Assembly (NCBI GenBank): GCA_009869945.1
Contig: WIXG01000003.1
Location: 665,978-729,977, forward strand
Length of the DNA stretch: 64,000 nt
Direction: 5' to 3'
From: Mesaphorura yosii
Taxonomy: Eukaryota; Arthropoda; Collembola; Poduromorpha; Tullbergiidae
Every line of letters starts with the position of its first letter. Position 1 is the stretch's first letter. Of the stretch, positions 24,901-29,423 are shown one piece after another. The position numbers were made by a program, and so were the translations under genes. The notes beneath the pieces were generated by a model that searched no databases, was not told the origin of the DNA, and saw nothing but the letters and a program-made list of their open reading frames with translations.

Positions 24901-25047
24901 CCGAACAAAGAACACGACAAATGAGTACAGCCACATGGAATTAAGCCGAATGCGAATTAGGAATTACACAATCTCGTGTTTATTGTTCTCTTATTATCGA
25001 TTTGGCTGTGATAGAATCAGAACATCGAGCAGAAGCAGGCTGCAAGA
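21998..25047. other. 3-kb intergenic region upstream of globin 1
   Basis: No coding gene is supported. A strong donor (CGCAG|GTAAGC at 23395/23396) ends an open stretch from about 23,219, which could be a non-coding first exon of globin 1. Its acceptor would be near 25,020, just before the globin ATG. This is speculative. GATA-type motifs (TGATAG, TTATCG) lie within 60 bp of the globin start. Confidence 0.3.
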
Positions 25048-26078
25048 ATGGGTGACCGAATTCTGAGCGCTTCGGAGGAGGCCGCAGTTCGCAAGACGTG
25101 GGGGCTAGTCGCAAAGGATCTGAAGGGAAACGGAACCAAGTTCTTCATTCACTTCTTCACGGGCTACCGCGAATACCAGCGTGTATTCAAGGGGTTCGCC
25201 GACATTCCCCTCGAGAAGCTCGCCGAGAACAAACGGCTCATCGCGCACGCCGTGACCGTCATGACGGCCATCAATGGGCTCGTAGAAAACCTGGACGACG
25301 TGGAGGTGGTGAAGGAGCTGCTCCTCAAGACGGGCCAAAACCACGCTAAAAGGAATATCAAGATTGGAGATTTCCAAGTGAGTCTCGTCTTGTCGCAGAC
25401 GCAGCGTGTGTCTCGCCATCATAAATCATACCTCTGAACGCCGTGACGCATTGTTTACTCCTTGTTGGCTTGAATCTTCGAGTCTGACCTTCGTTTTTAA
25501 TGAAGCAAGAAGATTTCGAAAGAAATGAATGAAAAAATGAATGCTAATTGACTTGTAAAAAGATTTAACTTACTATTTGACCATTTCACGAATGACAACG
25601 AGACTTAATCCTTTATTATGGTAATTCGTAATTGATAATTCGTGTTCGAGCTTCTCAGAAGTGGTTACCTGTGCACAAGTGCAAGATCAACGGCAAGACA
25701 GAGAGAACTGACCAAATAATACGTATTACAATTACGTAATAGATTATCTCACGAATACGAAGCTCACGATGCAACGCAAGAATGAAATCTGATCCTTTGC
25801 GATGAATTCTGATGACGATGACTCCCTTCCGGAGTCTGCTCTATTTTTGCCATGCATTTCACCGTCGCCGTTGCGGCTCGTGGAAAGGTCGGCCATCTAA
25901 AATTAAATCTTGCGTCTATTTCTGGTCTGAATAGAATCTGAAGGAGTCGTTGCTGGACTTTTTTGGGAAGGCGCTGGGCGAGCACTGGACGCCGGAGGCG
26001 GACGACGCGTGGAAGAAACTCCTCACGGTCATGATGAGTGTCATCGGAGAAGGGCTGGCCGCGGGTGCTGAGATGTAG
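25048..26078 (+). CDS. Globin 1 (intracellular single-domain globin)
   Basis: Two exons (25048-25377, 25935-26078) encode a 157-aa single-domain globin that would bind O2 or other small ligands through heme. Haem-pocket residues by position: CD1 Phe47, CD4 Phe50 (VFKGFADIPLE), distal E7 His67 (RLIAHAVTV) and proximal F8 His99 (KTGQNHAKR). W18 is the conserved A-helix Trp. There is no signal peptide (it starts MGDRILSASEEAAV), so it is probably cytosolic. The FADIPLE and LDD motifs resemble arthropod globins. The only intron (557 bp, long for this locus) is phase 0 in the G helix (FQ|NLK), the expected G7.0 position. The usual B12.2 intron is absent. It is tandem with globin 2, and tandem AATAAA signals follow at 26416. 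Confidence 0.92.
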
Positions 26079-26415
26079 ATGCAGAAATCATGCGGACCGA
26101 ACTATGCCTGACACTCCCACGCAACACGCATGGCACAGGCGCTGCGGGCATTGGCATTTACTTGATATTAATCTTGTATTTCGTATTGCATCGGGTTCTT
26201 TATTGATCAAGATTTTAGGAATTACTACGCTTCTTTTGTTAATCGTGCATGTAACATTATTCGGGTTAGGAATTAGAATTAGAATAGCATCCCGATAAAT
26301 CGAGTGTTTGCTTTTCTTGTGCAATTACAGTTACAATTACGAGTATTATAATTATATTATTGTCAGCTAACATGATATAAGTTTGCCAGCACAAGTCATA
26401 ACTGCAATTCAAACG

Positions 26416-26425
26416 AATAAATAAA
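26416..26425 (+). terminator. Overlapping polyadenylation signals of globin 1
   Basis: AATAAATAAA provides two overlapping AATAAA hexamers, 338 nt after the globin 1 stop. Confidence 0.5.
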
Positions 26426-26518
26426 TTCAAGTTCATGTGCTTTGGATTTCTGATTTATACCAATTTCTGAGCACTGCAGCCTATTACGAAGGAATTGCGA
26501 TGGTGGTGTGCCGGTGGA

Positions 26519-26630
26519 CAGGGCTGTCAAGTGATATATATCGGATAAATATCAATGATAATAATGATATTTTTGATATTTTCATAAAAGTGCTTTTTAG
26601 GCCTGGAAATGCAATTTCCGTTGTTTTCAA
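26519..26630 (+). mobile_element. hAT-type transposon end (terminal inverted repeat region)
   Basis: The segment begins CAGGGCTGTCAAGTG, typical of hAT termini. Over 112 bp it matches the reverse complement of 28785-28896 with only three differences, about 97% by eye. It is the left end of an element related to the MITE in MRPS23. Downstream sequence diverges at once, with a short rearranged stretch near 26,640-26,680. No matching 8-bp flank was found for this copy. Confidence 0.7.
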
Positions 26631-27063
26631 ACCATGAAATCGAAAATGTCAAAAATATCATTGATATTTTCAATCATCAAATTTTTAAAAAAAATATACC
26701 AGAATTATTTTGAATTTATCGCTTAAAACTTCAAATTTTATGAGTGCTTACTCAAGCCTCATTAATTATCTCAACAAAAAGCAGGGCAACCGGCGTTCCC
26801 TCATATCATTCCACGTTAGAAGTTGCGAAACATTGAAACTGGTTCGTTCCATGCGCATGTATTTTGCCACACAGTCACAACGTTTTGTAATCAAATGCTG
26901 CTCTTTAATTCACTTTAACGTTAGAGTTTCAAGGCTCATCAGCTCATTTCTCATTTTGATTTCATTGCGTGAAGACGTTAAGCTCCTAAAGTTCAGATCT
27001 AAAGTTAAAGTTAAAATTCAAATAAATATCTCGTTCATTCAGTTAATTGTTCACGTTGTCATC

Positions 27064-27234
27064 ATGCCAAGAAGGCGAGATCCCATTTGGTCTTAATTTG
27101 ATGCCTTGACAGCGAAAACATACCTAGCAAAAGTTTGCCAGCTTGATGAAGTCAGTAGTAGACTGAAAAGGTTGCAAGCTGCTGGCTGCCGTTTGCAATT
27201 TGTGGTGGCCTATTATCCAACAACAAAGCTTTAG
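27064..27234 (+). pseudogene. Decayed BED zinc finger of a hAT-type transposase
   Basis: From the ATG at 27064 the frame reads MPRRRDPIWS, then a stop, then FDALTAKTYLAKVC and DEVSSRLKRLQAAGC. This spacing fits the BED finger at the N-terminus of hAT transposases (R-x-P-I-W-x-x-F, then a Cys pair, then R-L-x-x-H-x-x-C). The internal stop and lost Cys/His residues show decay. It lies 545 bp inside the hAT end at 26519, suggesting one degraded element upstream of globin 2. The rest of the transposase is not recognisable. Confidence 0.45.
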
Positions 27235-27393
27235 TTTGGAAGACGTTATTGATAGTCTGGTATCGTGGGGTGTGTGCAGCTGCCACTCAAGCTCATATCA
27301 GCCATTTAGGGTCAAAGTCAGTGACTGCTGGTAGTCTTGCGAGCTTCCAAGAGTCAAAGCTAAAGGGGAAGGAATTAGTTCGCATCATCCGAG

Positions 27394-28015
27394 ATGGGCG
27401 TTCTGACAAAGGAGGAGGAAGCCGCCGTTAAGAAGACGTGGGCCCTGTGTGCAAAAGATCTGAAGGGAGTCGGAGTCAAATTCTTCCTTCAGTAAGTGCC
27501 CGGTTTGGTGTCCCGTATCAGATGCGACTTCAATGCAGTGTTCTAACTCGGAGCCTGTACACTGTACAGTTTTTTCAAGGGATATCCGCAATACCAACGC
27601 ATTTTCAAGGGATTCGCCGACATTCCACTCGAGCAGCTAGCTGGTAACGTTCGCCTCGCCGCCCACGCCTTCACCGTGATGACCGCGATCGGAGGGCTCG
27701 TCTACACCCTGGATGATGCGGATGTACTGAGCGAACTGCTCACCCGAGCCGGGAGAAATCACAGTCGCCGACATCTCAAATTGGAGGATTTCGAGGTACA
27801 TCGACAATAAGCTGCTCTCTGAAACCACCGCGAAATAACTGATTGATTGCTACGATGTTCTACAGAACTTGAAGAAATCGCTTTTGGAATTCCTGGGCAA
27901 GGCGCTGGGTGAGCATTTCACGCCGACTGCGGACGCGGCCTGGAAGAAACTGCTCACACTCATGATGGAAAAGATCGGCGAGGGTTTGGCTCAAGGAGCT
28001 GAAGGAGGCGTCTGA
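27394..28015 (+). CDS. Globin 2 (tandem paralogue of globin 1)
   Basis: Three exons (27394-27491, 27570-27795, 27866-28015) encode 157 aa, the same length as globin 1 and clearly its paralogue. Shared features are KDLKG, QR-[VI]-FKGFADIPLE, HTVM-like helix E and NLK-SLL-F-GKALGEH. Key residues: CD1 Phe45, distal E7 His65 (RLAAHAFTV) and proximal F8 His97 (RAGRNHSRR). Intron 1 splits a His codon after its second base in helix B (the canonical B12.2). Intron 2 is phase 0 in helix G (G7.0). It starts MGVLTKEEEAAV with no signal peptide. It ends only 131 bp from the stop of MRPS23 on the other strand. Degraded hAT sequence lies directly upstream and may affect its expression. Confidence 0.92.
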
Positions 28016-28117
28016 ATGAGTACACTTTTCTTATTCATATGATCTACTATCAATGTACAAAACATGACTGTGACTGTGATGTCGGTACAAAATGAACATC
28101 ATGACAAACGTGAATGC

Positions 28118-28146: not shown

Positions 28147-28585
28147 TCACTTTTTGCCCTTGTCAAGGTCGTCTTTCTCTTTAGTTTTCTTGAACATCGA
28201 TATTAAGGTGTCCACGGTCACAATCGGGCGTTGGACACGTTTCTTTCTTTCCGCTCCCTCACTGTTTAGATCTTCATCGTCGACATCGTCTTCATGCATC
28301 AGGGAGGACGCGAATCTTCTCTCAGCGGATTTTTTAGTCCCGATCATTGATTCAGATACAGAGATACCCTCAGGTTCTGTTGCTATTGTTTCCGTTCCCA
28401 CTCGTTCAGCCTTCCTGGATACAAGTCCACCACTGCCGAAATTCCCAACGAAATCTTGACTGATTGATTCAACTATTTGCTCGGGCGTCCAGTCCCCATG
28501 CGCCGACTTCGTTTCAGTGTATTTCTGGATAAATCTTTTCGTCGCATCCAGACCTGGTAAATGTTATATTTTCATAAATATAGGA

Positions 28586-28622
<37 letters not shown>

Positions 28623-29423
28623 GATATTTTCAATAAATATCACCTCATTGATATTTTTGATATTAACGATGAAATAAGAAGGCTATAAGTGCAGACTGTG
28701 CAAAAATACAGAATACAACAATTTTATTAAGAATTATGCCAGTTTTGAATTAATTATTGGCTTAAGTTAAATTAATTTCAATGCTTGAAAACAACGGAAA
28801 TTGCATTTCCGGGCCTAAAAAGCACTTTTATGAAAATATCAAAAATATCATTATTATCATTGATATTTATCCGATATATATCACTTGCCAGTCCTGGTCG
28901 CACCTTCTTCTCCTTCCCCAAGCGATCCTGCTACATTCATGAGGTTCCTGGCTTTGCCCCCAGGATTCTTGCCAAATTTCTTAAATAGCGCCCTGAAATA
29001 ACGTTAATACTTCAGCCACAATCTACAACGAACGAATCAATGAACGCGATCATTTTGTACAACTTCCTTACGCTCTTGAGACATCTTCATTGTACAGGAT
29101 GCTCGGCACTTCATCCGCCATTCCTTCAGAAAGCTCCGGTTGTCGATCAGCTCGAGGCTCGAATTTTGGGGGGAAGACCCGATAAACGTCGTACCAAATG
29201 GGGCGGTCTTCATACTTTATCGCCTTTGTGCGGAGGAGCCCGGTAGTCCTGCAATTAGAATTAGCATGAAATCAGCAATTACTAGTTGCTGCCTTTCTGC
29301 TGCTGGTGCCGACTTGCCAGAAATCCAGTAATCATCGTCACCACGACCGACCTTTCCTTGGGAATTCTGAATTTCTTACCTGGAGAATATTGTCCCGACG
29401 TACTCAAGCCGACTTCCAGCCAT
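28147..29423 (-). CDS. MRPS23: Mitochondrial ribosomal protein S23 (mS23), with a transposon-derived intron
   Basis: Four exons on the minus strand (29423-29380, 29248-29072, 28992-28904, 28553-28147) join in frame to 238 aa; human has 190. The product is a small-subunit mitoribosomal protein. It begins MAGSRLEYVGTIFSR, nearly identical to the human start, followed by DRPIWYDVYRVFPPKFEP, ILYNEDVSRA, LFKKFG and TKRFIQKYTE. The C-terminal tail is longer than in human and charged (KKTKEKDDLDKGKK). Intron 3 (28903-28554) consists almost wholly of a MITE. With donor GAAG|GTGCGA and acceptor TTACCAG|GTCTGG the protein reads EEG-LDATKRF. Other donors tried put the next exon out of frame, and read-through meets TGA within the element. 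The gene is divergent from INTS6 (543 bp between ATGs). Confidence 0.88.
28549..28896. mobile_element. 348-bp hAT-like MITE forming MRPS23 intron 3
   Basis: The ends read CAGACCTGGTAAATG (left, plus strand) and CAGGACTGGCAAGTG (right, minus strand). Inside, both arms carry imperfect inverted copies of ATATATCGGATA and TTGATATTTTTGATATT motifs. The flanks are GTCGCATC (28541-28548) and GTCGCACC (28897-28904), an 8-bp duplication with one mismatch, as expected for hAT insertions. The right 112 bp nearly equal 26519-26630. An (AT)15 run has expanded in the left arm. There is no ORF of note, so it is non-autonomous. It sits where the uninterrupted MRPS23 coding sequence would be. Confidence 0.8.
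28591..28620. repeat. (AT)15 microsatellite within the MITE
   Basis: Fifteen perfect AT units inside the left arm of the element; likely polymorphic. Confidence 0.9.

Follow-up and report, generated by a model that had tools for sequence, protein, structure and literature searches.

Did the MRPS23 gene of the springtail Mesaphorura yosii gain an intron from a transposon? The question is raised by a 348-bp element lying inside the gene, in a stretch of 64,000 nucleotides (the window, to which positions below refer unless a contig is named). According to the original prediction, this element is a hAT-like MITE that is spliced out as intron 3 by means of its own target-site duplication. Our analysis of the genomic sequence leads to much the same reading: a hAT MITE inserted into an MRPS23 exon, and it is quite probably excised as a new intron 3.

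The gene at 29423-28147 (minus strand) was recognised as MRPS23 by a Pfam profile match of its spliced form (PF10484, MRP-S23, E 6.9e-31), and its product matched solved mitochondrial ribosomal protein S23 chains with a best E of 3.4e-18. Its exons, of which the first three are separated by introns 1 and 2 of 131 and 79 bp, are as follows.

29380-29423, minus strand: exon 1, with the start codon at 29423.
29072-29248, minus strand: exon 2.
28904-28992, minus strand: exon 3, with final letters ...GAAGAAG ahead of the proposed donor.
28147-28553, minus strand: exon 4, which begins with 5 nt of the element end and one copy of the target duplication, and ends with the stop TGA at 28149-28147.

Exon 4 contains no stop or frameshift along its whole length and raises the MRP-S23 score from 96.4 bits for the truncated form to 107.6 for the spliced form, the empty-site form scoring 108.5. 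By itself it gave no MRP-S23 match in Pfam, so that its support for MRPS23 is modest. Neither a second MRPS23 nor an empty-site allele was found in the assembly (93 Mb, 1127 contigs), the 3 matches corresponding to exons 2, 3 and 4 of the same gene. A search of the assembly for COX1 gave no match.

The element and its flanks were delimited as follows.

28549-28896, minus strand: hAT-type MITE of 348 bp, with minus-strand ends CAGGACTGGCAAGTG...CATTTACCAGGTCTG.
28541-28548, unstranded: target-site duplication copy 1 (GTCGCATC).
28897-28904, unstranded: target-site duplication copy 2 (GTCGCACC), containing the proposed minus-strand donor.

A 348-bp element with CAG..CTGG ends and an 8-bp duplication with one mismatch had been predicted, and its coordinates were confirmed. 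The two duplication copies are 7/8 identical; with equal base frequencies assumed, a match of at least 7/8 at the expected place has a chance of 3.8e-4. The element ends CAGGACTGGCAAGTGATATAT and CAGACCTGGTAAATGTTATAT are identical at 16/21 positions as an inverted repeat by our own count (binomial chance ~6e-6), and these terminal inverted repeats begin with CAG and carry the hAT-type TGG motif. An 8-bp duplication and CAG...CTG ends with a TGG motif are features of hAT elements. No reading frame of at least 80 aa lies wholly within the 348 bp, hence the element has no transposase gene of its own; the hAT dimerisation domain PF05699 gave 39 matches in the genome, all above cut-off, none of them linked to the exact ends of the MRPS23 element. 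For the RNA of 28541-28910, a long hairpin is predicted in which the two ends come together (z -4.3, better than all 100 shuffles). Through the ends, the duplication, the restored frame and the related copies with perfect 8-bp duplications (see below for the last two), the insertion of a hAT-like MITE in an MRPS23 coding exon, as first proposed from the sequence, is well supported.

The reading frame behaved as anticipated in three respects. When the element and one duplicate were removed, an open MRPS23 frame of 236 aa was obtained, whichever duplicate was kept. The predicted splice from 28903 to 28554 adds exactly 6 nt and keeps the frame, with a product of 238 aa, and without splicing a stop is reached after 110 aa. 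At the peptide level, the predicted spliced form reads EEG-LD-ATKRF where the empty-site form reads EEG-ATKRF. The two extra residues fall in a linker, shorter in mammalian chains, directly before the conserved RFxxKYTE stretch.

Two features are needed to discuss the splice sites themselves.

28554-28903, minus strand: proposed new intron 3, 350 bp, 25% GC, with donor AAG|GTGCGA and acceptor TTTACCAG|G.
28814-28829, minus strand: competing, higher-scoring acceptor within the element (AAAAGTGCTTTTTAG|G); with it the next exon would begin at base 28814 and the product would have 120 aa.

Sites were scored with a matrix built from 14 homology-supported introns (PSMD12, TDP1, MRPS23, INTS6, MAP2K and two globins). 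The matrix is small, and the choice of introns, their boundaries and the gene names other than MRPS23 come from our own reading of homology. Of these 14 introns, only 2 exceed 350 bp in length. The candidate donor scored 4.95, the best GT from the start of exon 3 to 60 nt beyond the element; among the leave-one-out reference donors (1.7 to 8.9), 1/14 scored lower and 13/14 higher. It had been described as noncanonical after GT, and it is indeed weak, with +3 G in 2/14 references, +4 C in 2/14 and +6 A in 1/14 (own count); it is not aberrant, however, as its +5 G is common to 13/14 and its score lies within the reference range. The predicted TTACCAG acceptor, 5 nt inside the element end, is well placed and in frame, and at 28553 it scored 5.28, with 5/14 reference acceptors lower. 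What had been overlooked is the acceptor at 28814, upstream of the predicted one, which scored 9.53. Small as the matrix is, this stronger site is the main point against efficient splicing. Scores at least equal to those of the candidates were reached by 7.2% of the 7188 GT and 4.2% of the 7382 AG sites of the whole window; since so many sites score as well or better, splice scores alone prove little. When 12 donors were combined with 26 acceptors at a minimum distance of 50 nt, 9 pairs yielded at least 200 aa, and among these only 28903/28553 had both sites above 4. The alternative pair 28884/28534, which also gives 238 aa, was rejected, its donor scoring just 1.44 and its acceptor being absent from the 16 listed.

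The origin that we propose is the following. To judge from the anatomy, a non-autonomous hAT element of ~348 bp inserted into what was a single MRPS23 coding exon at the proto-splice site AAG|GTGCGAC, with duplication of 8 bp. The upstream duplicate would then supply the 5′ splice site. The 3′ splice site, 5 nt from the end of the element, would come from its CTGG-type terminus, which on the minus strand reads CCAG in the outward direction. The net change of the message corresponds to these 5 nt plus the duplication bases that precede the donor, here 1, hence 6 nt. The spliceosome would excise 350 nt and leave an mRNA longer by 6 nt, that is, two residues, in the linker. Judging from the predicted fold, both splice sites are probably brought close to each other as the element folds back on itself.

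The nearest relative of the element lies in the same window.

26519-26640, plus strand: nearest relative, with 95% identity to the MRPS23 element over 122 bp.

This copy, whose other end was not found, lies ~2 kb from the MRPS23 element, between two globin genes, which suggests a local hop. The two globin genes, by our reading, are in tandem at 25030-28020 of the window (plus strand) and have an intron position in common. Among solved structures, a globin frame had matches to distant globins only.

Could the element simply have broken the gene? Splicing would then be inefficient and the MRPS23 of the assembled haplotype cut short to some 110 to 120 aa, either as a harmful allele or as a recent polymorphism. 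The unspliced stop at 110 aa and the 120-aa product of the strongest internal acceptor fit such a state, as does a duplication still 7/8 identical. Against it, exon 4 still has neither stop nor frameshift, the assembly yielded no other copy of MRPS23, and the 5% divergence of the two copies over 122 bp indicates that time may have passed, although part of it may predate the insertion. We also simulated insertion of the element in both orientations at every position of four coding stretches of the window, short margins omitted (n=8264). Success required a donor at least as good near the duplication, the terminal CAG as acceptor and no break in the frame. An in-frame intron was produced by this rule in 48/8264 insertions (0.6%), which makes the MRPS23 arrangement an unlikely find if splicing were irrelevant; the figure is a guide only, because rule and threshold were set after the MRPS23 case had been seen. 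The frame was open without splicing in 0/8264. Taken together, these two counts make the locus look like a survivor selected through splicing, and the simulation favours such a survivor over a random disruptive insertion. We regard the broken gene as unlikely, though as the most serious competitor of the new intron 3.

An older intron at this site, into which the element inserted or which it replaced, is very improbable. Outside the element and the two duplicates no intronic sequence is left, and once joined the exon is a single open frame, whichever duplicate is kept. By contrast, a related copy on contig C12 sits, by our reading, inside an apparent ordinary intron and keeps flanking intron sequence of its own; the flanking frame there had no Pfam match.

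The new intron 3 being the preferred reading, the rest of the genome is informative about the family from which the element came. After the copy near the globin genes, the next-closest copies in the genome search had ~83% identity across ~70 bp at one end. Duplications were measured at 9 loci including MRPS23; contig C1117 was dropped, as the copy there stands at the contig start and has no left flank, and copies on C95, C65, C841, C886, C371 and others were left out of the count, their second end not being found. In the 7 other copies with both ends and both flanks, the 8-bp duplication was perfect in 5/7, with 2 mismatches in one and 3 in one. These 7 copies gave 21 cross-junction frames, 8 of which were scanned with Pfam; none scored over cut-off, one giving a weak PF09172 match (E 0.059). 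In a further search at up to 2 mismatches, matches numbered 28 and 22, against 12 and 12 in the control, so that only the 7 places with 0-1 mismatch were kept. Three of them are in the window (both ends of the MRPS23 element and the neighbour copy), and the others are on C410, C425, C929 and C110. By eye, the C110 match did not look related. For the C410 copy the other end was not found within 6 kb, and for those on C425 and C929 none was seen by eye in short flanking stretches. The acceptor-bearing end had one occurrence in the genome within 3 mismatches, in a search that gives a lower bound.

Several of these MITEs deserve mention in their own right. At C410:582, a copy with a CAGGGCTGGCAAGTG end directly follows a signal-peptide-like open frame, a possible second exonic insertion. 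By our reading, a 496-bp MITE with internal tandem repeats (C472 from 24908) adjoins the start codon of an opposite-strand, secreted-protein-like frame, and a 204-bp MITE flanked by a perfect duplication, GAAGAAAT (C146 near 13183), immediately follows the stop codon of a gene. One short hAT-like MITE family starts with CAGGGTGCGCTGATAATTATCC. At C886:3559-3942, a zinc-finger-like frame (WAKCKSCGIDMQGIKTRMKQH) was seen by eye behind a related terminal repeat, and the two may be what is left of an autonomous element. Short hAT-like MITEs stand at contig starts (C71:7, C184:39, C758:73, C1117:1 and C898:1), and MITE copies were present in loci that end at a contig edge (C317, C401, C461 and C544). 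With MITEs at so many contig ends, the assembly seems to break there, and repeat counts are therefore underestimates.

The copies differ in their ends. Read outward, CAGNNCTGG-type ends give CCAG, which offers a 3′ splice site at 5 nt from the tip, and both ends of the MRPS23 element are of this type. Ends of the CAGGGATGG type, such as those of the C12 copy, read CCAT and are without a CCAG 3′ splice site. Such a rule, drawn from one case, would predict which subfamily insertions can become introns. One could go further and suppose that the hAT lineage with CAGNNCTGG-type ends is pre-armed for intron-making on either strand, more such introns being hidden in unassembled copies; we consider this rather doubtful. 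If it were true, any insertion would give an in-frame intron, provided that its 8-bp duplication contained a donor whose GT is preceded by 1, 4 or 7 bases.

Is the MRPS23 element then an introner, as the original prediction suggested? Introners in the sense of PMC9860276 form families of at least 4 introns per genome that are alike in their ends. Taken as a single locus, MRPS23 has the anatomy of the published design, the element ends coinciding with the predicted intron ends in an MRPS23 coding exon. A search of the genome for more introns bounded by the same element family, suggested as a check in the original prediction, revealed no second one (again a lower bound). The close copies number two, of which one lies in a gene, in an assembly that under-counts repeats and whose gaps could hide more. 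As the anatomy fits and the family was not found, we class the case as an intron derived from a transposon, without calling it an introner. Least probable of all is a true introner family of many introns, most of them unseen as the assembly breaks at repeats: several related MITE copies do lie at or near contig ends, genome counts are lower bounds, and the architecture, with a donor from the duplication and a carried acceptor, is like that of published introners (PMC9860276, in the part available), but the acceptor-bearing end occurs once, the one close relative lies between two globin genes and is without that end, and none of the 8 scanned among the 21 cross-junction frames had a Pfam match over cut-off.

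Comparison with known systems was made from those parts of the sources that were accessible. Symbiodinium introners share with the MRPS23 case a donor from the duplication, an acceptor from the element and terminal inverted repeats; their duplications are 4 bp, compared to 8 bp here (Gozashti et al. 2022, PMC9860276), and introners come in families, with several introns in each genome, whereas one was found here. In Aureococcus, introners add 12 bp to the transcript, 4 bp of element and 8 bp of duplication (PMC9860276). Extra in-frame codons and an 8-bp duplication are thus common to both cases, but the Aureococcus donor is in the element, while in MRPS23 the donor is in the duplication and 6 nt are added. 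Intron gains by transposon insertion, animals included, are tabulated for Oryza, Drosophila, Oikopleura and Zea, and share the AGGT proto-splice site with our case (PMC3443670). The accessible parts of PMC13326754, PMC7789003 and PMC4202315 contained no closer case. Among the literature matches listed, judged from titles and abstract openings, none was identical, which does not prove absence from print. The route from transposon to intron is rare and already known, and MRPS23 is best filed as a one-off, putative hAT-derived intron. To judge from titles, maize Ds in an exon was reportedly found to behave as an intron by Giroux in 1994. Ds is a hAT element, the ends of which are not known to carry the CTGG motif. 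The likeness is that of a hAT element acting as an intron in an exon; in MRPS23 the host is an animal, the splicing is inferred and the ends are different.

To our knowledge, young introns whose source can still be read are uncommon, above all in animals. The MRPS23 locus displays together the source, the target duplication and a predicted donor and acceptor, and the conserved gene that carries them was found in one copy. According to a 2012 review (PMC3443670), it was not understood what decides whether a given transposon end is spliced, and the MRPS23 case suggests a simple, testable rule for which ends become spliced. Relatives without the insertion, or with degraded versions of it, would date the birth of the intron.
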